A stretch of 64,000 nt of DNA, taken from the NCBI RefSeq assembly GCF_900105315.1, contig NZ_LT629766.1, positions 3,162,001-3,226,000 of the forward strand, given 5' to 3'. Under the pieces are notes generated by a model that saw only the letters and a list, made by a program, of their open reading frames with translations, made no database searches and had not been told where the DNA came from. The stretch is from Brevibacterium siliguriense. Its GTDB lineage: Bacteria; Actinomycetota; Actinomycetes; Actinomycetales; Brevibacteriaceae. The position numbers and the translations under genes are program-made. Positions within the stretch are counted from its first letter, which is position 1. Every line of letters starts with the position of its first letter. Shown piece after piece: positions 35,007 through 64,000 of this stretch.

Positions 35007-38000
35007 TCAGAGCTGAGCGAGAGCCTTCGCGATGCGCTTCTCGGACACCGGATGCGCGGTGCCCAGCGAATTCGCGAACAGTGAGACTCGCAGCTCCTCG
35101 AGCATCACAACGACCTCTACCCATGCGGCTGGCAGCGACACGATGAGATGCGACCATTCGGCCTTCGCCAGTGGCGGGAAACGATTCCCGATCTTCTTCA
35201 GCACATCATTGCCGCAGCCGGTGACTCGGTCCATGAGCTGTTTGTCACGGATCGGTGAATCCTGCATCCCTCCGATGCGCACGACTTCGGCCCGCACCCA
35301 CCGGGGCAGCTCGCGCAGCATCTGCGGAGTCATCGCCGCAATGGCAGCGGTACTCGTCCGGGAGGCGCTCCATGCCTGCACATCGGCGAGGTTGGACAGG
35401 ACCGCCAACGAGGATGCCTTCGACACGAGTTTGTCGAGCTCGGTAGCCGCCGTCAGCGCCTTCATCAGGGACGGCAGCAGCGACGAACACGTCAGCGGCA
35501 GCTCGGCGTCGACGTGCTTACGCAGGCTGGCGAACTCATCGGCGGTGGCCACCCACGACGATTCGGCCGGCCCCAGCCGGTCGGTGACGAGTCCTCGGAT
35601 TCCGACCCGAATCAGCCCGACCAGCAGTTCGTCGGCGGTCTTCTGGTGACCGGCGAGGACGAGCTTCTCTTGGGTGGTCAGCCCGTCCTGCAGGTATTTC
35701 AGCGCCTCACTGGTGTGCTGTGCCAGCAGTGTGATGATCGCTTCTCGCGTGGCCAGTCGCGCTTGCGCTGCGGTATCGAAGGCGACGAGGTCGACCGACA
35801 TCGACCGGTCCGCAAGCCCCGGAACGACACCAGCCGGAGCCTGATCTGGGTCGCCCAGTTCACCGAACGACCAACTCGTCAGACCGGTCTGAGGGTTGAA
35901 TGCGCTCTGCTTCTGGCGGGCCTTGCGCACTTGCGGTTTGGCTTTCGTCGTCAGCGCGGTCAGGTCCTCGCCGAGGCCGACGGTCTTCTTCCCGTCGACG
36001 ACCCGGAAAGTCAGCCGCAGGTGGGCGGGAATCCGCGACCGTTCGAAGTCATCGGCGGTGACCGTGATCGGCACGAGGTCATTCAGCCCTCCCCCGCCGG
36101 CGCGTTCGCTCAGATACGCAGCGAGCACGTCCGGCAGGCTCCCCTGGTACGGGGTGAGCGCGGGCAGGATCTCACGGGCGACGTCGGGAGCGGGAACGAA
36201 GTAGCGGCGTTTGTTCTTCGGCAGTGAGCGGATATAGGCGGCCACGAGTTCTTCGCGCAGCCCGGGGACCTGCCAGCTGAACTCGTCCGCGTCGACCGCG
36301 GGCACCGCCTCGGCGGGGATCTCCACGGTCACCCCGTCCTCGGTGCTGCCGGGGTCGAAGGAGTAGCGCAGCTTCGCCCGCGTACCGTCGGTCAGTTCCC
36401 ATTCCATCGGGAAGTCCGAGGCCACCGAGGCGGTCAGCTCCTCACTGTCGTCGCTGAGCAGCACCGAGGTGGTGAGGTCGAGCAGGTGCGTGTCCCGTCG
36501 CTTCTGCTTCTTCCACCATCCCCGGAAATCCGCCGCCGAGGTGATCCCCTCCGGAATCCGTTCGTCGAAGAATTCGTAGAGGGCATCGTCTTGGTCGAGC
36601 ACGCGACGATTCCGTGTCCGCGAAGCCAGTTCCTCGGCCTCGTCGATGACGGCCGCGTTGTGTTCGAGGAAGCCGAAGCGTTCGTGCCAGTCGCCCTCGA
36701 TGAGCCCCTTGCGGATGAACGCATCACGGGCGGCCTCGGCGTCGATGGTGCCGTAGCCGACGCGGCGGTCGCTGACGAGTGTGACCCCGTAGAGGGAGAT
36801 CTTCTCGTACACCATCGAGGCGCCGGCCTTCGTCGACCAGTGCGGATCCGAATGTTGACGGGTGACTAGGTCACCAGCGGCTTCGACGACCCAGTCCGGA
36901 TCGATCGCGGCCACGGTGCGTGCCCATAAACGGGAGGTCTCGACGAGCTCGGCGGCCATCACGAAGTCCGGATTGACCTTGAAGAGTCCGGATCCGGGGA
37001 AGATCGCGAACCGGGTGCCGCGGGCCCCCTGATAGTCCTTGTGTCTCTCGGAACGTGAGCCGATCATCGTCAGCAGTCCGGTCAGCAGAGACCGATGGAT
37101 CGCGGCGGCGTGCGGATCGAGCTTGGCCGCGGCCACCTGCTTCCCGGTGTCCCCTGCGGGGCCGGCCGCCCCCTGCTTCTTCGCACTGCGTTTGGCGGCG
37201 CTGAGTTCGGCGAATCCGATCTTGCCGTTCGCGCCGTGTCCGCCCTGAGCGTTCCGACTGCCAGTATTCTGAGCGCCACGAGCATTCTGACCCTCACGGC
37301 CACGACCGCCACGACCGGCTTGACCACGCTCGGAAACATCGCCGGTTACGACCGTGTTCGCCTTCCCGGAGCCCGCTCCGTGGCAGGACTCGGCCGCGTC
37401 TCCGTCGTCGGTCGGCTGCCAGACGGACTTCTCGATCCGGATTCCGGCGGAGCCGAGCAGTGAGCGCAGCTGGCCGACGAGGTCCTGCCATTCGCGGATG
37501 CGCACGAAGTTGAGGAACTCCTCCTTGCAGCGGCGCCGGAATTTCGAGGATCCCATGTCCGCCTGCAGACTCTGCAGGTAGTTCCACAGGTTGAGGTAGG
37601 ACAGGAAGTCGCTGCCCTTATGGGTGAAACGGGCGTGCTTCTCATCGGCTGCGGCGCGGACCTCGGCTGGTCGTTCCCGGGGGTCCTGGATCGACAGGGC
37701 GGCGACGATGACGATGACCTCTCCCCCGCAGCCGGCCTCTGCACCGGCGATGACCATTCGGGCCAGGCGGGGGTCGATCGGCAGCACGGTGAGTTTCCGA
37801 CCGATCTCGGTGACGTGGATCCTGCCTGCAGAATCGCTGTTCAGCGCCCCAAGTTCGGTGAGCATCGTGCGTCCGTCACGGACGGCCCTGGCTTCAGGAG
37901 GGGTGAGGAACGGGAAGTCGAGGATCTCCTGATCGCTCGAGGCGAATCCCAGTGAGGCCATTTGGAGGATGACGCTGGCGAGGTTCGTTCGCAGAATCTC

Positions 38001-39302
38001 CGGATCGGTGAATTCGGGACGCGAGTCGAAGTCGTCTTCCGAGTACAGGCGGATGCAGATGCCGTCACTGGTGCGCCCGGAGCGGCCCTTGCGCTGGTTC
38101 GCACTGGCTTGGGAGATCCGCTCGATCGGCAGACGCTGCACCCGGGTGCGGTTGGAGTAGCGGGAGATGCGGGCAGTGCCGACGTCGATGACGTATTTGA
38201 TCCCGGGCACTGTCAGCGAGGTCTCGGCGACGTTCGTGGCCAGGACGATGCGGGGTCGTGAGTGAGCTTGGAAGACCTTCTGCTGCTCCCCCGCCGAGAG
38301 CCGGGCGAACAGCGGAACGACCTCCCAATTGCTCATCCGCGGACGTCTGCGCAGATGGTCGGTCAGGGCGTCGGCTGTGTCCCGGATCTCACGTTCGCCA
38401 GAGAGGAAGACGAGGATGTCACCGGGGTCTTCGGCGGCGAGTTCGTCGACTGCTGAGATGATTCCATCGGTCTGCTCCTCGACTCCGGTTTCGTAGTTCC
38501 CGGATTCGCCGGGCCCGTCGACATCGTCATCGGCCGGATCATCCCCGAGCGGCCGGTAACGGACCTCGACGGGAAAGGTGCGGCCTTCGACGGAGATGAT
38601 CGGAGCGTCATCGAAGTGAGCGGAGAACGATTCGGGGTCGATCGTCGCCGAGGTGATGATGACCTTGAGATCGGGACGTCGGTCGAGGACTTCCTTGAGA
38701 TAGCCGAGGAGGAAGTCGATGTTGAGGCTGCGTTCGTGCGCCTCGTCGATGATGATGACTTCGTAGTCTCGCAGCAGTTTGTCACGCGAGAGCTCGGACA
38801 GCAGGATGCCGTCGGTCATCACCTTCACCCGGGTGGAGTCGGCGACCTGCGCGGTGAACCGCACCTGGTAGCCGATGGTGCTGCCGAGTTCTTCATCGAG
38901 TTCGTCCGCGATGCGCTCGGCGACGGTCCGAGCGGCTATTCGCCGAGGCTGGGTGTGGCCGATGAGTCCGTCGACCCCGAGGCCGAGGTCGAGGCAGATC
39001 TTCGGCAGCTGGGTGGTCTTACCCGATCCCGTCTCTCCGGCGATGATGACGACCTGGTTGTCCCGGATCGCCTCGGTGATCTCGTCCTTCGCCCCTGTGA
39101 CCGGCAGATCTTCGGGGTAGGAGACGGTCACCGGATGGGCCGCGCGGGCCTCCTTGAGGCGGGCACTTCGCTGCTGATGCTGGGCGGCGGTGTTCGCACG
39201 CCGCTGCTGCGTGCGTCCGCGTCCGCTCTTCCGTCGCCGAGGCGGCCGCTGCGGATTCTGATCCGAGGGAGTGGTCGACGGGGTCGGGTTCTGATCTGAC
39301 AT
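35007..39302 (-). CDS. hrpA: ATP-dependent RNA helicase HrpA
   Basis: A 1431-residue DEAH-box helicase of the long HrpA type. The N-terminal 50 residues are Arg/Gln-rich. Walker A GETGSGKT is at residues 89-96, DEAH at 186-189, SAT in VIITSATID, and motif VI as QRKGRSGR. The helicase-associated and DUF3418 C-terminal regions fill the rest. A Gly/Arg/Gln-rich insert near residues 650-700 (GQAGRGGRGREGQ) interrupts the middle and is low-complexity. HrpA acts in RNA remodelling and release of stalled ribosomes. A small GC hairpin at 34991-35005 follows the stop. Confidence 0.94.
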   Translation of the reverse strand: MSDQNPTPSTTPSDQNPQRPPRRRKSGRGRTQQRRANTAAQHQQRSARLKEARAAHPVTVSYPEDLPVTGAKDEITEAIRDNQVVIIAGETGSGKTTQLPKICLDLGLGVDGLIGHTQPRRIAARTVAERIADELDEELGSTIGYQVRFTAQVADSTRVKVMTDGILLSELSRDKLLRDYEVIIIDEAHERSLNIDFLLGYLKEVLDRRPDLKVIITSATIDPESFSAHFDDAPIISVEGRTFPVEVRYRPLGDDPADDDVDGPGESGNYETGVEEQTDGIISAVDELAAEDPGDILVFLSGEREIRDTADALTDHLRRRPRMSNWEVVPLFARLSAGEQQKVFQAHSRPRIVLATNVAETSLTVPGIKYVIDVGTARISRYSNRTRVQRLPIERISQASANQRKGRSGRTSDGICIRLYSEDDFDSRPEFTDPEILRTNLASVILQMASLGFASSDQEILDFPFLTPPEARAVRDGRTMLTELGALNSDSAGRIHVTEIGRKLTVLPIDPRLARMVIAGAEAGCGGEVIVIVAALSIQDPRERPAEVRAAADEKHARFTHKGSDFLSYLNLWNYLQSLQADMGSSKFRRRCKEEFLNFVRIREWQDLVGQLRSLLGSAGIRIEKSVWQPTDDGDAAESCHGAGSGKANTVVTGDVSERGQAGRGGRGREGQNARGAQNTGSRNAQGGHGANGKIGFAELSAAKRSAKKQGAAGPAGDTGKQVAAAKLDPHAAAIHRSLLTGLLTMIGSRSERHKDYQGARGTRFAIFPGSGLFKVNPDFVMAAELVETSRLWARTVAAIDPDWVVEAAGDLVTRQHSDPHWSTKAGASMVYEKISLYGVTLVSDRRVGYGTIDAEAARDAFIRKGLIEGDWHERFGFLEHNAAVIDEAEELASRTRNRRVLDQDDALYEFFDERIPEGITSAADFRGWWKKQKRRDTHLLDLTTSVLLSDDSEELTASVASDFPMEWELTDGTRAKLRYSFDPGSTEDGVTVEIPAEAVPAVDADEFSWQVPGLREELVAAYIRSLPKNKRRYFVPAPDVAREILPALTPYQGSLPDVLAAYLSERAGGGGLNDLVPITVTADDFERSRIPAHLRLTFRVVDGKKTVGLGEDLTALTTKAKPQVRKARQKQSAFNPQTGLTSWSFGELGDPDQAPAGVVPGLADRSMSVDLVAFDTAAQARLATREAIITLLAQHTSEALKYLQDGLTTQEKLVLAGHQKTADELLVGLIRVGIRGLVTDRLGPAESSWVATADEFASLRKHVDAELPLTCSSLLPSLMKALTAATELDKLVSKASSLAVLSNLADVQAWSASRTSTAAIAAMTPQMLRELPRWVRAEVVRIGGMQDSPIRDKQLMDRVTGCGNDVLKKIGNRFPPLAKAEWSHLIVSLPAAWVEVVVMLEELRVSLFANSLGTAHPVSEKRIAKALAQL

Positions 39303-46165: not shown

Positions 46166-47452
46166 TCAGGTTATGCGATCGACGTCACGCCGCGGGATGA
46201 TTCCGAAGCTCAGCAATGGGGCAAGTGCGATGATTCCGAAGGAGATCGGATAGCCGAAGGCGGTCACCAGGGCACCGAATCCGGGGCCGAGCAGGGCCGA
46301 CATGACGAATTGTCCCGTGTTCTGGGCTCCCAGCGCTTTGCCCGACCACCGCGGGCCGGCGGCTTCTGCCACGGAGGCGAAGGCCAGTCCGTTGTCGGCC
46401 ACCGACACGGCTGAAGCGAGGATGAAGACGACAGCGGCGACGGCTGGCAGCTCCGTCAGCGACAGGATGGCGATGGCCACCACGACGATCACGGCAGCGA
46501 CGGCGACGATGCGCATGAGGCCGACGCGGGATCCGGTGCGGTCGGAGAGCGCGCCGATGACCATGCGGCCGACTGCGCCGACGATCTGCGCGATCGCGAC
46601 GATCGCTCCGGCGGCGCCCGCGCCGACCCCCTGGACGACGATGAGCCAGACGAGCCCGTAGGTGGAGAACGCGAACTGCGGGACGACGAGGAGCGCGGAG
46701 ACCGCATGGATGCGCCACAGGAAGGAATCGCTGCGGTAGGGATTGATCGCCGAGGCGGCGCTGGGCTTCCCCTCCCCCGCCGAGGCGGTGCCCGGTTCGT
46801 TCTGTCCGTGGCGTTCCGTCTCCGGTTCGGTGTCGCGGTCGGGGTCGGCCACCTCGGCGCGAGTGGGGGTCGGGTCCGGTGGGTTGCGGATGAGGGCGAA
46901 GCAGACGAGGGCGAGTACGCCGGTCACGGCGGCGACGAACCAGAGGTAGGCGGGGAATCCGCCGGCCGCGGCGATCGGTGGGATGGTCACGGCGGCCACG
47001 CTCGTGCCCAGTGGCTGGGACATCTGGCGGATGCCCATGGCCAGCCCGCGGCGGTGGCGGGGGAACCAGCCCATGACGACGCGGCCGGACGCCGAATTCA
47101 CGGAGGCGGCTGCGGCACCGGAGGCGGCGATGACGATGACCATCCAGATCGGCGAGTCGACGACGAGGACGGCGGCGGCCGAGAACACGGCGGTCAGCCC
47201 GATCCCCAAAGTCATGGCCAGGCGTTCGCCGAAACGGTCGGCGAATGCGCCCCAGGCGATGAGGGTGAGGATGAGTCCGAAGCTCGGTGCGGCAGCGACG
47301 GTGCCGGCCTGGGTGAGTGTGAACCCGAGGTCGGAGTGCATATAGGGGATGAGGAAGGCGGGTCCGGCGATCGCGATGGTCGCCGCCATCTGCGTGAGAA
47401 CGCCGACGACGAGGATCACCCAGGCCTGCCGGGTGGGTCCGTTCGTCGTCAT
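46166..47452 (-). CDS. MFS transporter
   Basis: A 428-residue major facilitator with 12 helices in two halves, joined by a hydrophilic loop rich in Asp/Glu/Thr at about residues 195-235. AFADRFGERLAMTLG is the loop 2-3 motif of MFS proteins; MGWFPRHRRGLAMGIRQMSQPLG resembles the oxalate/formate or NNP-like MFS branch. -10 box TAACCT lies 6 nt before the ATG, so the mRNA is leaderless. The substrate is unknown. Confidence 0.88.
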   Translation of the reverse strand: MTTNGPTRQAWVILVVGVLTQMAATIAIAGPAFLIPYMHSDLGFTLTQAGTVAAAPSFGLILTLIAWGAFADRFGERLAMTLGIGLTAVFSAAAVLVVDSPIWMVIVIAASGAAAASVNSASGRVVMGWFPRHRRGLAMGIRQMSQPLGTSVAAVTIPPIAAAGGFPAYLWFVAAVTGVLALVCFALIRNPPDPTPTRAEVADPDRDTEPETERHGQNEPGTASAGEGKPSAASAINPYRSDSFLWRIHAVSALLVVPQFAFSTYGLVWLIVVQGVGAGAAGAIVAIAQIVGAVGRMVIGALSDRTGSRVGLMRIVAVAAVIVVVAIAILSLTELPAVAAVVFILASAVSVADNGLAFASVAEAAGPRWSGKALGAQNTGQFVMSALLGPGFGALVTAFGYPISFGIIALAPLLSFGIIPRRDVDRIT

Positions 47453-47542: not shown

Positions 47543-47619
47543 CCCCCTATAGCCCAATCGGCAGAGGCAGTCGACTTAAAATCGATTCAGTGTGGGTTCG
47601 AGTCCCACTGGGGGGACCA
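47543..47619 (+). tRNA. tRNA with anticodon UAA (Leu by codon), short variable loop
   Basis: A 77-nt cloverleaf including encoded CCA. The acceptor stem CCCCCTA pairs with TGGGGGG, the discriminator is A, the D-stem is GCC/GGC, and the anticodon stem GTCGA/TCGAT has loop CTTAAAA (anticodon TAA). The T-arm is GTGGG-TTCGAGT-CCCAC. By anticodon it reads UUA (leucine), yet normal tRNA-Leu has a long variable arm and here the variable loop is only about 5 nt. GATAAA about 18 nt upstream may be the -10 box. It marks the left edge of the accessory region. Confidence 0.85.
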
Positions 47620-47768: not shown

Positions 47769-48110
47769 TTAATGAGCGTTGTCGTAGGCTTTGACAACAG
47801 CTGCTGGGATGCGGCCACGAGTGTAAATGTCATAGTCGTTTTCTCGCGCCCACTTCCGAATCTCTTCGAGGTCGCATTGTCCTCGCCGAGAGTCACGGGT
47901 ACGCCTCTTATACTGCGAACTCTTTACCGCTCTAGCCACTCTCGTGAACGGTCGAAGGCTCTCTTCCAACTCCTCAGCGTGAGCTGTAGTGAGGTCGATC
48001 GCATAGCTGGTTCCATTGATCGCGAAAGTGACGGTCCGGCCCTCACTGGGATCGGAGATGAGTGTGCCGTCGAGGTCGTCGTAGATGTGCTCAATGAGTC
48101 TTCTCGCCAT
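47769..48110 (-). CDS. lsr2: Lsr2-family nucleoid-associated silencer
   Basis: A 113-residue Lsr2 protein, an H-NS-like DNA-bridging factor that silences AT-rich foreign DNA. The N-terminal dimerisation part is IYDDLDGT...VTFAINGTSYAIDLTTAHAEELEESLRPF. The C-terminal DNA-binding part is IRKWARENDYDIYTRGRIPAAVVKAY, with the AT-hook-like RGR at 98-100. ATG at 48110 is chosen because TAGAAT ends 6 nt before it. The linker is basic (YKRRTRDSRRGQ). Its place between a tRNA and decayed DNA suggests a copy belonging to the island; whether the genome has another Lsr2 is not visible. Confidence 0.92.
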   Translation of the reverse strand: MARRLIEHIYDDLDGTLISDPSEGRTVTFAINGTSYAIDLTTAHAEELEESLRPFTRVARAVKSSQYKRRTRDSRRGQCDLEEIRKWARENDYDIYTRGRIPAAVVKAYDNAH

Positions 48111-48116
48111 CGACAT

Positions 48117-58524: not shown

Positions 58525-61500
58525 TCACTCGCGTCGACGAACGGTCCTGATAATACTGGCACCGGCAGCGATCAGGAGCAGGCCGACGATGAGCCAGGTC
58601 ACGATCACTGCTCCAGTTCGGGGGAGGTCTCCGCTGCCACCATCAGCGTCGCCATCGGCCCCACCACCGTCAGCATTACTATCGTCTGAGCCTCCGCTGT
58701 CGGCACTGCCGTCGGTTCCACCACCGTCGGAACTGTCATCCGCTGTGTTGTCGTCATCTGCGAATGTGTTCGTCACAGTGATTGTCGCGGGATCTCCGCC
58801 AATTGTCACTTCACCTGGTTCACCTTCGCCGATCGTCGAGATCGTCTTGGACTCGGCACCGCCGTCGTCGGTCTCGGTTACAGTGCATTCAGCACCGATC
58901 GGCAATCCACTGTAGGTCACTGGGTCGTCTGGAGTGATCTTTCGATCGGCTCCGCCGGGGATCTTGACGGTCTGACCATCGAACGTGCAGTCCAAGCTCA
59001 CTTCGAAGGGGCCAACATCGTGCGCGTCGCCATTGACCACCTTGTCCACCTCGATCGAGCCGACGTCGAAGGTGTTCGTCACGGTCACAGTTGCCGAATC
59101 GTCGTCGGCCGGAGGGACTTTGACTTGGCCCGGATCTCCGCCGTCGACCGTGGTCGATACGCTCGCTGTGGTAGCGCCACCGGTGTCAGTTTCTGTGACG
59201 ATGCAGTCTGCACCAACAGGAAGTCCGGAGTAGACTGCCGGTTCACCCGGGCTCACCGTCCGGGTCGCCCCACCGATACCCTCGGCAGACATGTCAATGT
59301 CCCCACCTTCGAAGGTGCACTCGGCGGTGACTTCGAAGTCGGTGCCGGCGAACTCGGCACCGTCCCCCTCAACGAGTTTCTCAACGTCGAATTCGCCGAG
59401 ATCGTAGGTGTTGGTCACCTCGACTGCGATGGGTTCAGTGCCTTCGCTGATGGTGCCGGAGTCTGGTACGACCGTGGTCGTCGTCGCGCCGCCGTCGTCC
59501 GTCTCAGCGATGGTGCACTCAGCGCCGTCGGGCAGCCCGAGATACACTGCCGGGACGCCGGAGCCGAACCGGCGAGTCTCACCGCCGGGGATCGGCACGT
59601 CTTCGCCTTCGAATGTGCAGTTCAGAGTCGCTTCGTAGGGAAGATCAGCGAGCGAGTCGATGTCGTCAATCGAGTCCGGCATATCCGGTGCGAAGTCCGC
59701 GCCGTCACCGTCGACAGTCTTCTTCACGACCAGTGGACTGGTCTTGAAGGTGTTGGTCGCCAGGACTTCGACCGAAGTGGTGTCGCCGTCGTCGTTCGGT
59801 GGGACGACGACCTTGGCAGAGGTTCCATCAATCGGGTCGCCGTCATCGACGGTCATCGTGGTCTCTGTGGCTCCAGCGGTGTCCGTCTCGGTCACGGTGC
59901 ACTCCGCACCGACGGGCAATCCTTCGTAGACCGCTGGGTCTCCGGGCATGAACTCCTGCGTGGCTCCGCCAGGGATGTCGATTGCGGTTTCACTGTCGGG
60001 GAACGTGCAATCGACTGTGGCCTCGAACGGTCCTGCGTTATAGATGCCCGAACCGATTCCCGTTAGCTTCTTGTCGACCTCGATGGTGCCGACATCGTAG
60101 GAATTCGTCACCGTTACTTCGGCGGCCGCAACATCGTCTGCCGGAACGATGACCTCTCCGGGTTCGCCGCCGTCGACGCTCGAGGAGATTTCGACGTCGG
60201 TGGCTCCGAAGTCATCGGTCTCAGTGACAATACAGTCCGCCCCGACCGGAAGACCGTCATAGGTGACCGTGTCTCCCGGCTCGATCTCCCGTGTCGCCCC
60301 GCCAGGAACGTCGATCTCACTGCCTTCGAAACTGCATTGAGTGCTTACTTCAAACGGTCCGGCACCAAAATCGGCTCCGTCACCCTCGACTACCTTCTGT
60401 ACGGAGAACTTTCCGACCTCGTACGTGTTGGTGATGGAGACATTCACCTGCTGCTGCGAACCGTCGTCGCCACCGATGATCACAGTTTCGGGATCGACCG
60501 AGACGGAAGTCGCCTGTCCCTGTTCAGTTTCGGTCGTTGTGCATTCGGCCCCGATCGGCAGCTCCTCGTAGTTCACCGGCTCCCCCGGCGTGAGTTCACG
60601 ACTCGCTCCACCCGGTATGTCTACCTCGGTTCCGTTGAAGGTACATTCCAGAGTGACTTCATAGGGTCCTTCGGCGAAGTCGGCTCCCTCCCCGTCGATG
60701 ACCTTGTCGACCTTGACCGACCCGGGATCAAAGACGTTGGTCACTGTAATCTCGGCTGGGTCGGGTCCGACGGTCAACGTACCGGGATCGCCGTCCGTTG
60801 CTTGCGCGGAGATGGTCGTCGATGTCGCACCGCCGTCATCAGTTTCGGTTACGACGCAGTCGGAACCGATCGGCAGGCCCTCATAAGTGACAGGTTCCCC
60901 GGGAGTCAGTTCACGTTGGGCCCCGTCGGGAATCTCGACGTCTGCGCCCTGATACGTGCAGTCTGCGTTGACCTCGAACGGACCCAAGGCGTCGTCGGGT
61001 AGCCCGGTGTTGTTCTCGACGACCTTGTCGACAGAGAACGATCCCAGGTCGAACTCATTGGTCGCGGCGACTTCTGCAGTCTCGTCTGCCCCTACTGTCA
61101 CTGGGTTCGGGGTGATCTCAGAGCTGGTAGCACCCCCGTTGTCAGTCTCAGTGAAATCACATGACGCGCCGACGGGCAGATCGTCGATCGTGGCTTCAAG
61201 CGGATCATCACCGCCGAGGCTGACCGAGTCGTCATAGACGACCTTCGCGTCTGCGCCACCGCCTCCGTCAACATCAAAAGTGCACACGACGTCGAAGACA
61301 AACGGTCCGGTCCCGTAGTCGTCGGCACCATTGCCTGTGACTTCTTTGGTGAGGTGGATGGAACCCACGTCGAAGTGATTTTCCACGTTCAGCTGTGTTC
61401 CGGCGGTTCCTTCGTCGTTGGCAACGACCGTCATCTTGGCCGTGTCCCCGTCGGTCTCCACCGGCTCCTCGCCGGGTTGGCTAATCGTCATCGACGTCGA

Positions 61501-64000
61501 CGCGGCTCCCCCAGTGTTCGTCTCGGTCACCGTGCATTCGGCGTTGATCGGCAAACCAGCGAGCTCGGCTGGAGTACCGTCGGCCGGGAGGTCGACGACC
61601 ATTGGATCATTGGGGCCATAGCCCTCGGCATAGACGGGATCGCCGAGGAAGGAACAATCGACGCTCGCTTCGAACGGACCGTACTCAACCGGATCGCCGT
61701 CCTCATCGACTGCCTCGGAATCAACTGTCTTGGCCAACTCCAGATCACCGAGGTCGTAGTTGTTCACAGCATCAAGGGTGACCGCGTCCGGTGACTCCCC
61801 GATCGTCACGGAGCCGACGTCGAGCGAGGTCTGACCGTTCGAGTCGTCCTCAGTAATCGTGCACTCGGCACCGTAGGGAAGGTTCGGGACCTCGGTCTCT
61901 CCACCGTTGGGCACAGTGATGGTGATCGGGTCGAGATCTTTCTCCAACCACGAATCAGCTGCAGACGTGCACTGCACCTGCAGCGTGAATTCGTCCGGTG
62001 CGTAGTCAGCTCCCGCTCCTGCAGCCGTCTTGTGTACAGTCAGTGGTCCTGTCGCGGTCGCGACTCCGACCTTCGCCCCTTCCGTCGGCAGCATGTTGAC
62101 CTCTTTGCCGTCCGCGGTGACGGCCACTCCGCCGGCTGCCGCCGAGTTCCAGGCGATCGACCGGTCCCCTGCCTCCGGGGCCTCAGCGGGAGTTGTGGTG
62201 GTGCCTTCCACACTGACCGAATCGCCCGGATCGAGGAGGTTCTCCGGGTCCATGGTGATAACGACCTTGATTGCTGTGACGTCTTCATACACGTCCGGAG
62301 AAGTGTCTGGGGTCAATTCCACCCAGCCGCTGTCAGGGTCATCGGTCGGGCATGGATGATTGATGGGGTCCTCGATGTCGTCCATGCAGTAGTCCTGCGT
62401 GGTTGAGTAGTAGACCTTGGACGTCGCCCCCTCAGGTGCATCGGTGATCGCTGGGGGCGGATCCTTGGTCAGTGTGGGCGACCATTCTGAGCCCCGAGCA
62501 GAGGAAGTGGCGTAGGAACCCACATCTCCCGGGGTAGGAAGGCGGTCGTAGAGCACCGCCTGATCCATCGGCAAGTTGCCGACGTTTTCCATGTTGATTT
62601 GCCAGGTCTCGTTGTGCCCGGGAGCGATGACCGGGGTGCAGGGGTAGGCATAGAACCCATCGTCATTCGGAGTGCATTCGGCGGGTTGGTCGGGGTAGTC
62701 CGGATCGACCATGACAGCGAGTTCATCGTCGTCGGTGGCCTTGACCAATTTGTTCTGGCTGATGACGGCTGTTCCCGTTGGGTGGACATCGGCATCGGCC
62801 TGACATTGTCCGGTTTCGTCGTTCAATCGTGGTTCGCAGTTGTCCCATGGCCGGTCTCCTGTCACTCCGACGGTATTGTCCACCGGAGTCTGCGGGGGCA
62901 GGCCGAATCGGAAGTTGACCATCACGGTGACCTGGTAGCTCTGTCCAACTTCGAGCACTGATCCTTCGGGGAATGTGAACTCGAGGCTGTCGATGTCCCC
63001 GTCCTGGTCCACAGATACCTCGTCGGGGTTCTCCGGCAGATTGGGAGTGTCCGGGTCGGGGTCGGATCCCGATAGCGAGTACGAATAGGGAATGTCTGTA
63101 TCCGCGAGCTTCAGCTGCGCACCGTCGTCATCGGTGGGCATAGGATCAGTAATCACCGGGTCGGTAATCGGACGCTGCCCCGTGTTGGTGATTGTAATGT
63201 TCATCGGGAAGGTGGAGGTGGGACCTTGAGATCCGTCGGTGACTGTTCCGTCGAAGTCCTTCTTCACGCTCACACCATTGACGGCGTGCTTGTAGCGGAT
63301 CTGCGCGTCGGCGGAGTCTGAGGCAGAGACCGGGACTTGTTCACCGGTATCTGGATCAACGATGAGATCAGCGCCCGTCGTTGTTCCGTCCACCGAGTTG
63401 CTGGCCACGCCGGGTTCAGATTCGCCCGGAGCATTCGGGTTTGAGGCCAGGTCGTGTTGGACCGGGCCGCCGGAGCGCATGTCATCGCGCCGCAGCACGT
63501 CAAGAGGCACCGATTGCTTCGGTGTGGCCGGGTTCTCCCAGATCTGTCCGTCGGCCCGGGTGAAGGTGAACCTCAGCCCCTGGACGTCGTCGGGATCGAC
63601 TCCGTCCGGCAGCGTGAACGTGTCGCTTGGGGTGCCCTCGATCCAGTCGGCACCATCAACGGTGACTGGATCTGGGGAGTCTGGGTCGCCGGAGAAGGTC
63701 CCGCCGGTGAGAACATCAACCTGGACCTGGTCGATCGGCGCGGCCAATTGCGCGCTCGGGTCGAATCCGACGAAGTCGTATTGGTTCCAGAATTGAGGGT
63801 CGTCGTCGGTCAGGACCATTTCAACGCTGCGCGACGGGCCTTGGGGTTGGCCTGTGATCGTCATGGTCACCGGTGTGTCATCGGCATCAGCGCCGTGGTT
63901 CGGCTCGGTGATGGTGTCGGGATCGAAAGTCTTCGTCACATCTAAATCGATGTCGGCGTCTTGGAGGTCCATCGTGGCGTCGTCATAGGCCTGGCGTTTA
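58525..64000 (-). CDS. Giant LPXTG cell-wall protein with DUF5979-like repeats (N-terminus outside window)
   Basis: At least 1824 residues; the frame is still open at base 64000 and no signal peptide is seen, so the start lies outside. The first part (about 640 residues) has beta-sandwich isopeptide/DUF11-like stretches (QISYKVTVMVN-type strands such as QSYQVTVMVNFRFGLPP). Ten repeats of about 105 residues follow, then a Gly/Asp/Ser-rich spacer. The end is LPRTG (58612-58626), a hydrophobic helix and RRRE, the sortase signal. It is a covalently wall-anchored, highly acidic stalk or adhesin. No sortase gene is in the window. Confidence 0.92.
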   Translation of the reverse strand, partial: KRQAYDDATMDLQDADIDLDVTKTFDPDTITEPNHGADADDTPVTMTITGQPQGPSRSVEMVLTDDDPQFWNQYDFVGFDPSAQLAAPIDQVQVDVLTGGTFSGDPDSPDPVTVDGADWIEGTPSDTFTLPDGVDPDDVQGLRFTFTRADGQIWENPATPKQSVPLDVLRRDDMRSGGPVQHDLASNPNAPGESEPGVASNSVDGTTTGADLIVDPDTGEQVPVSASDSADAQIRYKHAVNGVSVKKDFDGTVTDGSQGPTSTFPMNITITNTGQRPITDPVITDPMPTDDDGAQLKLADTDIPYSYSLSGSDPDPDTPNLPENPDEVSVDQDGDIDSLEFTFPEGSVLEVGQSYQVTVMVNFRFGLPPQTPVDNTVGVTGDRPWDNCEPRLNDETGQCQADADVHPTGTAVISQNKLVKATDDDELAVMVDPDYPDQPAECTPNDDGFYAYPCTPVIAPGHNETWQINMENVGNLPMDQAVLYDRLPTPGDVGSYATSSARGSEWSPTLTKDPPPAITDAPEGATSKVYYSTTQDYCMDDIEDPINHPCPTDDPDSGWVELTPDTSPDVYEDVTAIKVVITMDPENLLDPGDSVSVEGTTTTPAEAPEAGDRSIAWNSAAAGGVAVTADGKEVNMLPTEGAKVGVATATGPLTVHKTAAGAGADYAPDEFTLQVQCTSAADSWLEKDLDPITITVPNGGETEVPNLPYGAECTITEDDSNGQTSLDVGSVTIGESPDAVTLDAVNNYDLGDLELAKTVDSEAVDEDGDPVEYGPFEASVDCSFLGDPVYAEGYGPNDPMVVDLPADGTPAELAGLPINAECTVTETNTGGAASTSMTISQPGEEPVETDGDTAKMTVVANDEGTAGTQLNVENHFDVGSIHLTKEVTGNGADDYGTGPFVFDVVCTFDVDGGGGADAKVVYDDSVSLGGDDPLEATIDDLPVGASCDFTETDNGGATSSEITPNPVTVGADETAEVAATNEFDLGSFSVDKVVENNTGLPDDALGPFEVNADCTYQGADVEIPDGAQRELTPGEPVTYEGLPIGSDCVVTETDDGGATSTTISAQATDGDPGTLTVGPDPAEITVTNVFDPGSVKVDKVIDGEGADFAEGPYEVTLECTFNGTEVDIPGGASRELTPGEPVNYEELPIGAECTTTETEQGQATSVSVDPETVIIGGDDGSQQQVNVSITNTYEVGKFSVQKVVEGDGADFGAGPFEVSTQCSFEGSEIDVPGGATREIEPGDTVTYDGLPVGADCIVTETDDFGATDVEISSSVDGGEPGEVIVPADDVAAAEVTVTNSYDVGTIEVDKKLTGIGSGIYNAGPFEATVDCTFPDSETAIDIPGGATQEFMPGDPAVYEGLPVGAECTVTETDTAGATETTMTVDDGDPIDGTSAKVVVPPNDDGDTTSVEVLATNTFKTSPLVVKKTVDGDGADFAPDMPDSIDDIDSLADLPYEATLNCTFEGEDVPIPGGETRRFGSGVPAVYLGLPDGAECTIAETDDGGATTTTVVPDSGTISEGTEPIAVEVTNTYDLGEFDVEKLVEGDGAEFAGTDFEVTAECTFEGGDIDMSAEGIGGATRTVSPGEPAVYSGLPVGADCIVTETDTGGATTASVSTTVDGGDPGQVKVPPADDDSATVTVTNTFDVGSIEVDKVVNGDAHDVGPFEVSLDCTFDGQTVKIPGGADRKITPDDPVTYSGLPIGAECTVTETDDGGAESKTISTIGEGEPGEVTIGGDPATITVTNTFADDDNTADDSSDGGGTDGSADSGGSDDSNADGGGADGDADGGSGDLPRTGAVIVTWLIVGLLLIAAGASIIRTVRRRE
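58760..62050 (-). repeat. Ten tandem DUF5979-like protein repeats
   Basis: Each unit starts near G.ftV.K.v.G.gad, has GPFEV..DCTF, a Thr-Pro-Gly-Glu-Pro turn, then GLPIGAECTVTETDDGGAT and ends in ITVTNTFD. The paired Cys in each unit (DCTF and GAEC) could form disulfides. Units differ by point changes and small insertions (unit 8 has about 15 extra residues), so the array is old rather than freshly expanded. Confidence 0.85.

Follow-up and report, generated by a model that had tools for sequence, protein, structure and literature searches.

The window (the whole 64-kb stretch of DNA analysed here) contains a single tRNA gene, called by ARAGORN on the forward strand with the anticodon taa and matched by Rfam RF00005 over positions 47543–47616 (58 bits, E 6e-12, gathering cut-off 29). 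Its stems comprise 7 bp (acceptor), 3 bp (D), 5 bp (anticodon), and 5 bp (T). The acceptor stem CCCCCTA/TGGGGGG is followed by T8 and A9, the D stem is GCC/GGC, and the anticodon and T arms read GTCGA-CTTAAAA-TCGAT and GTGGG-TTCGAGT-CCCAC, respectively. Because the variable loop has only 5 nt, the tRNA is of class I shape and lacks the long variable arm that characterizes a class II tRNA-Leu. A preliminary description, made from the sequence alone, had reported a good cloverleaf, a variable loop of about 5 nt, and an encoded CCA, all of which are confirmed by ARAGORN, RF00005, and the sequence. The tRNA lies between an MFS transporter gene and an Lsr2-like gene of the xenogeneic silencer type (Table 1). 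Beyond the latter are unknown ORFs, a HIRAN-domain gene, and HAD, sulfate permease, sulfatase, and sulfatase-modifying (FGE) genes.

Table 1. Positions in the window of the tRNA, its diagnostic nucleotides, and the genes discussed in the text
Feature	Position	Strand	Basis
UUA codon in DUF3418 helicase gene (35007–39302, −)	36927–36929	−	Aligned to Leu in 11/11 relatives; Pfam
MFS transporter, upstream neighbour in conserved genus flank	46166–47452	−	Pfam MFS_1, E 2e-50
Class I-shaped tRNA-Leu(UAA), CCA encoded	47543–47619	+	ARAGORN; RF00005, 58 bits; sequence
D-loop leucine identity nucleotides: A14 (47556), A15 (47557), G18G19 (47560–47561), A20a (47563)	47556–47563	+	Sequence; invariant in 30/30; identity set as given in the available text of PMC9976931
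Anticodon UAA	47577–47579	+	ARAGORN (anticodon at position 35)
Variable loop, 5 nt, TCAGT; last base U48 (47591) pairs with A15	47587–47591	+	Sequence; T invariant in 30/30
Discriminator A73 (47616) and CCA (47617–47619)	47616–47619	+	Sequence; A73 invariant in 30/30
Lsr2-like gene, start of variable downstream region	47769–48116	−	Pfam Lsr2, E 7.6e-18
1815-aa protein with many DUF5979 repeats (10 stretches), perhaps a surface protein; variable region	58525–63972	−	Pfam

The stems of the short-armed class are strongly maintained. Among 30 distinct members, standard pairs occupy 99.3% of 600 pair cells and 15 of the 20 stem pairs have changed on both sides, and none of 500 shuffles reaches either the pairing or the compensation value. 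The gene thus combines a score above the gathering cut-off with stems kept by compensatory change, as a functional elongator tRNA (RF00005) does. A BLAST DNA search returns matches (E ≤ 0.001) in 97 of the 99 genomes of the order, its own included; given this and the constraint on the stems, we rejected the possibility of a tRNA pseudogene. Class I shape, with a variable loop of 5 or 6 nt, was seen at every one of the 70 loci fetched, which come from 68 genomes of the order and carry the anticodon UAA (60 loci) or CAA (10 loci).

The genome that carries the window is a single contig of 4.02 Mb, 99.99% complete, with 46 tRNA matches to RF00005 and 45 distinct tRNAs called by ARAGORN. The leucine tRNAs with anticodons CAA, CAG, GAG, and UAG are class II, and UAA is found on the window tRNA alone. 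Two weaker RF00005 matches at E ≤ 10 correspond to a tRNA-Sec, called by ARAGORN, and to what reads in the sequence as a tmRNA 3′ end, a putative fragment on which ARAGORN calls nothing. A second, canonical tRNA-Leu(UAA) elsewhere in the genome, for which the preliminary description proposed a search, was not found by RF00005 to E ≤ 10, by ARAGORN, or by a class II leucine model (R2). Used as a proxy for an isotype model, R2 ranks the window tRNA (55.3 bits) directly after the four class II genes (88.9–101.3 bits) and ahead of a Trp tRNA (43.0 bits). A class II UAA gene might still have been missed, leaving the window gene redundant, since class II tRNAs score low with RF00005 (49.5–59.6 bits) and search filters can lose matches. 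We regard this as extremely improbable: neither the permissive RF00005 search nor R2, which recovered the other four, produced such a gene, R2 did find class II UAA tRNAs in four other genomes, and the assembly is unbroken and virtually complete. The tRNA-Sec (UCA) gene (L116, G000:C1:682700-683000, bases 89–183) is an observation in its own right; with it present, the genome probably uses selenocysteine.

A leucine anticodon alone does not prove a leucine tRNA, because a human tRNA with a Leu anticodon and no arm is, according to the available passages of PMC8450103, really Met-like. Leucylation in E. coli needs A73, A15-U48, G18G19, and A20a, and the long arm is dispensable (PMC9976931, available text), which gives no support to the premise of the preliminary description that a bacterial tRNA-Leu must have a long variable arm. 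The window tRNA carries all of these nucleotides, and A14, A15, G18, G19, A20a, U48, and A73 are invariant across the 30 class members. Within the genome, the full E. coli LeuRS set occurs in 5 of the 45 tRNAs, namely the four class II tRNA-Leu and the window tRNA. The tRNA-Lys(CUU) and tRNA-Ala(UGC) have A15, U48, and A73 and lack the extra D-loop nucleotide; tRNA-Arg(ACG) has the spacing and lacks the A at the place of A20a. A family search identifies one LeuRS, of 971 aa, with weaker LeuRS-family matches falling in three other frames (575, 924, and 1092 codons).

We also asked which residue UUA codons align with. UUA is rare: the codon set, drawn from 16 genomes of the genus and family (window positions 1–47540 and 29 fetched 20-kb stretches; 446 ORFs after filtering), contains 61 UUA among 174,587 codons. 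Relatives could be aligned at 39 UUA sites, of which 26 have Leu as the majority residue and 4 have Ile (probably all from one ORF family); Tyr leads at 2, and other residues, including Phe, at one site each. The resulting 67% Leu is below the 87% for UUG (609/697), in a test that is small because UUA is rare and whose sites are, in addition, not independent. The other controls gave 65/83 Leu for CUA and 70/104 Ile for AUA. The third-position and overlap filters dropped ORFs together with their UUA sites; looser tallies, which include spurious overlapping frames, gave Leu at 35/52 sites and at 38/61, the latter with Phe at 5/61. One of the UUA codons lies in the DUF3418 helicase gene, which we take to be HrpA-like (Table 1). 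UUA codons lying mainly at conserved Leu positions, in a genome where no other UAA anticodon was found, are what a sole UUA isoacceptor would leave.

Charging with another amino acid would make UUA a reassigned or ambiguous codon. Phe could be proposed, since A35A36 and A73 are held in common, or Lys, Asn, or Thr by likeness. The overall sequence is indeed nearest to class I tRNAs of this kind: without the variable region, the window tRNA scores highest against the genome's own Asn, Thr-cgt, Arg-tct, and Lys-ctt tRNAs, with Leu-CAA tying for fifth, in a comparison that used scores and not identities, which were implausibly low in some rows. Two models of the short-armed class (R1 and R3, below) also rank the genome's own Lys-CUU next, and the majority residue is not leucine at 13 of the 39 UUA sites. 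However, those 13 sites are scattered over several residues, and even in the looser tally Phe is far behind Leu. Moreover, every anticodon seen in the lineage (at the 70 order loci and 20 loci from across the phylum) is of the leucine type, and none of the genome's Lys, Asn, Thr, and Phe tRNAs has the complete leucine set. We therefore consider another amino acid very improbable. The preliminary description had envisaged a separate lineage for rare UUA codons, charged with leucine or another residue; a distinct short-armed UUA tRNA stands, and the other residue is opposed by the identity set and by the alignment of UUA with Leu.

The position of the gene adds a further consideration. The upstream flank is matched at 25 of the 29 other loci of the genus, with about 72–95% identity over up to 1.5 kb compared, and at 23 of those 25 the match stops within 21 bases of the tRNA 3′ end. 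G+C is 64.2% before the tRNA and 58.0% after it. The tRNA therefore sits at the edge of an accessory region, as had been proposed. In six relatives (G014, G029, G034, G035, G044, and G054), part of the tRNA (bases 31–72 or 31–77) is present a second time. In the two examined, a tyrosine integrase gene adjoins the tRNA: in G014 (L399, G014:C26:14000-24300) it is a phage integrase and the copies are 9.5 kb apart, and in G029 (L400, L401; G029:C11) they are about 21 kb apart. Judged from these sequences, the 3′ half of the tRNA is very likely an integration site, and an integrase with a second 3′-half copy would explain the accessory boundary at the tRNA. Within the window's own genome the tRNA has one match and no second copy, in the window or elsewhere; none of the 12 downstream window ORFs tested against Pfam is an integrase, 4 of them matching no family. 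A plasmid search with the region gave two weak, uninformative matches.

This boundary could be taken to favour a tRNA that acts outside translation, supplying aminoacyl groups to cell-wall or peptide chemistry, or that is an accessory relic of a mobile element, the more so as short-armed leucine tRNAs are also known from tRNA arrays (L165 in Cylindrospermum; PMC6582537 in its available text). The preliminary description had raised a non-translational tRNA as well. Against it, the window gene stands alone within a conserved flank and is kept across the order, and no other UAA tRNA was found in its genome, where UUA codons are used, mainly at Leu positions; the window tRNA carries the leucine identity set, and the integrase and partial copies of the two relatives would account for the boundary. 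The probability of such a role is, in our estimate, minimal. Array tRNAs resemble the window tRNA in having leucine anticodons and class I length, as in the Mycobacterium cluster, where the available text of PMC6582537 gives one short-looped tRNA-Leu(TAG), and in L165; they differ in being clustered. A mobile tRNA-array tRNA was rejected, since this is the only tRNA in 64 kb and its upstream flank is conserved; an allo-tRNA was likewise rejected for a lone gene with that flank and the only UAA anticodon found.

Taken together, the only UAA tRNA found, the leucine identity set, the one LeuRS, and the placement of UUA at conserved Leu positions make a UUA leucine tRNA the most likely reading. 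We are accordingly highly confident that UUA decoding in this genome is the task of the window tRNA alone, as a class I-shaped leucine tRNA charged by the ordinary LeuRS; its leucylation, expression, and decoding are predicted from the genomic data. The single LeuRS would recognize it via A73, A15-U48, G18G19, and the extended D-loop with A20a, features that would all be independent of a long variable arm, and the charged tRNA would read rare UUA codons in normal translation.

The preliminary description also suggested a search for orthologues in Actinobacteria, and short-armed tRNA-Leu proved widespread there, in the order loci, in the phylum, and in named genomes. A model of the class (R1) places it in at least 113 of 396 genomes across the phylum, a lower bound because at least two members were missed and 12 candidates were scored per genome. 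The structure line of R1 is shifted by one column over the D and anticodon stems, and the model separates the class largely by sequence; it gives at least 68.6 bits to checked members outside the Cylindrospermum array, versus 54.6 for the next of the genome's own tRNAs. Real members below its cut-off are the CAA tRNAs of G120 (62.0 bits) and G287 (54.6 bits). All 20 R1 phylum matches fetched, of 134 places listed, are class I leucine tRNAs (11 CAA, 6 UAA, and 3 UAG). A corrected model (R3) admits Lys tRNAs (67 bits), and its count of 346/396 at the same cut-off was set aside.

In a pattern scan of named genomes, ARAGORN calls a class I-length tRNA-Leu with UAA or CAA in 117 of the 119 stretches among the matches listed (80/80 and 37/39); the pattern required CTYAAA and is hence uninformative on anticodon choice. 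The two exceptions among the scan matches listed are L211, without a tRNA-Leu, and L229, with CAG only. Named actinobacteria account for 73 of the 80 titled stretches among the matches listed, including Mycobacterium, Nocardia, Gordonia, Rhodococcus, Corynebacterium, Amycolatopsis, Microbacterium, and Bifidobacteriaceae. The non-actinobacterial titles are MAGs of Planctomycetota, Rokubacteriota, Deltaproteobacteria, Chloroflexaceae, Acidobacteria, and an unassigned bacterium, whose labels may be wrong, together with the tRNA array of Cylindrospermum sp. NIES-4074 (L165), in which all five leucine tRNAs called by ARAGORN are short (74–78 nt). The class I-length leucine tRNAs (UAA, CAA, CAG, or UAG) of L153 (Chloroflexaceae MAG), L177 (Acidobacteria MAG), L229, and L235 are not lone genes, with 19 tRNAs in L229 and 21 in L235, each within at most 8 kb.

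Leucine tRNAs were inventoried in 16 actinobacterial genomes, from R2 matches of at least about 60 bits and class I loci, with lower matches, down to 38 bits, left out. In all 16, class I supplies the leucine isoacceptor missing from class II (UAA, CAA, or UAG by lineage), and the two shapes therefore complement each other to the full set of five. Ten genomes, including that of the window (G000, G013, G028, G057, G060, G061, G079, G088, G308, and G108), have class II CAA, CAG, GAG, and UAG and class I UAA. G170, which by inference is mycobacterial-looking, has class I CAA and UAA; G128 and G208 have class I CAA and UAG, with UAA on class II. In G255 and G120, which look Streptomyces-like and have a bldA-like class II UAA, CAA is class I, a result that for G120 came from a separate follow-up and not the main inventory search. 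G360 follows the ten genomes and adds a redundant class I CAA, a divergent gene beside its class II CAA that is possibly an accessory tRNA (L245, G360:C1:2228428-2228500). A class I CAA was also seen in G287, of the Streptomyces-like family. Among fetched loci, which cover 20 of 29 matches, no class I tRNA-Leu was found in G223, G265, G426, G444, or G298, the last from another family.

These observations depart from the available text of a 2023 review, in which tRNA-Leu is long-armed everywhere except in animal mitochondria (PMC9976931). Canonical class II tRNA-Leu, including the UAA-bearing bldA of Streptomyces, shares with the window tRNA the leucine anticodon, A73, A14-A15, A15-U48, G18G19, and the extra D-loop nucleotide with A20a. 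In contrast, the window tRNA has a 5-nt loop and the D stem GCC/GGC, where the four class II tRNAs of the same genome have 13–19 nt. Animal mitochondrial tRNA-Leu(UUR) is similarly leucylated without a long arm (PMC9976931, available text), although it is organellar, has another synthetase, and is likened here by shape only. A close precedent lies in M. tuberculosis, where Leu_TAA (leuX) and Leu_CAA (leuV) are listed as 74-bp genes and MiaA modifies the Leu_CAA transcript (PMC9336784). At that length both are of class I size, and they serve UUA and UUG, as would the class I UAA and CAA of G170. Their lengths already imply an exception to the long-arm rule, although the available passages of that paper treat both only as MiaA targets and leave the missing arm unremarked. 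In M. tuberculosis, tRNA-Leu-2, 3, and 5 are described as long-looped in the available text of PMC11541572, which implies, without stating it, that the others are short. In the open-licence literature we found no paper that identifies class I tRNA-Leu as a trait of bacterial chromosomes; class I leucine genes are already in databases, and it is the generalization that appears to be unremarked in that literature. The name "tRNA-ReL" was not found in that literature and is not applied here.

The long-arm rule of the review is contradicted across many actinobacterial genera and not in one strain. The interest lies in this breach of the class II rule and in the swapping of isoacceptors, exotic readings being unlikely. 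UUA would be decoded by differently shaped tRNAs, class II and bldA-like in the Streptomyces-like genomes and class I in genomes of the window's order. Class I tRNA-Leu offers a natural experiment on what LeuRS requires of its tRNA, and tools for annotation or tRNA-seq that expect every bacterial tRNA-Leu to be long-armed should be used with caution. A bolder proposal, which we advance as speculative and on balance doubtful, is that Actinobacteria keep two leucine tRNA shapes under one LeuRS and swap which serves rare UUA, UUG, and CUA, the short kind being a possible separate control handle. If true, charging rate, modification, or sensitivity to tRNA-attacking toxins could act on the translation of genes rich in rare leucine codons, with an effect comparable to bldA control in Streptomyces.

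Class I leucine tRNAs may have originated by loss of the arm from class II or by recruitment of a class I tRNA to leucine. In a tree with the arm and anticodon removed, the leucine tRNAs of both shapes (65 sequences, representing 13 of the 16 inventoried genomes) are separated as a single clade from 38 other tRNAs of the window's genome (support 69). In quick searches with 5000 replicates, too few according to the program, a grouping of class I Leu with Lys and Asn was not rejected (p-AU 0.065), whereas one extended to Lys, Asn, Thr, Arg, Phe, and Val was rejected (p-AU 3e-6, same small replicate number). Class I Leu is not one clade in the tree: 13 of 16 sequences group together (support 85), and two UAG sequences fall among class II.
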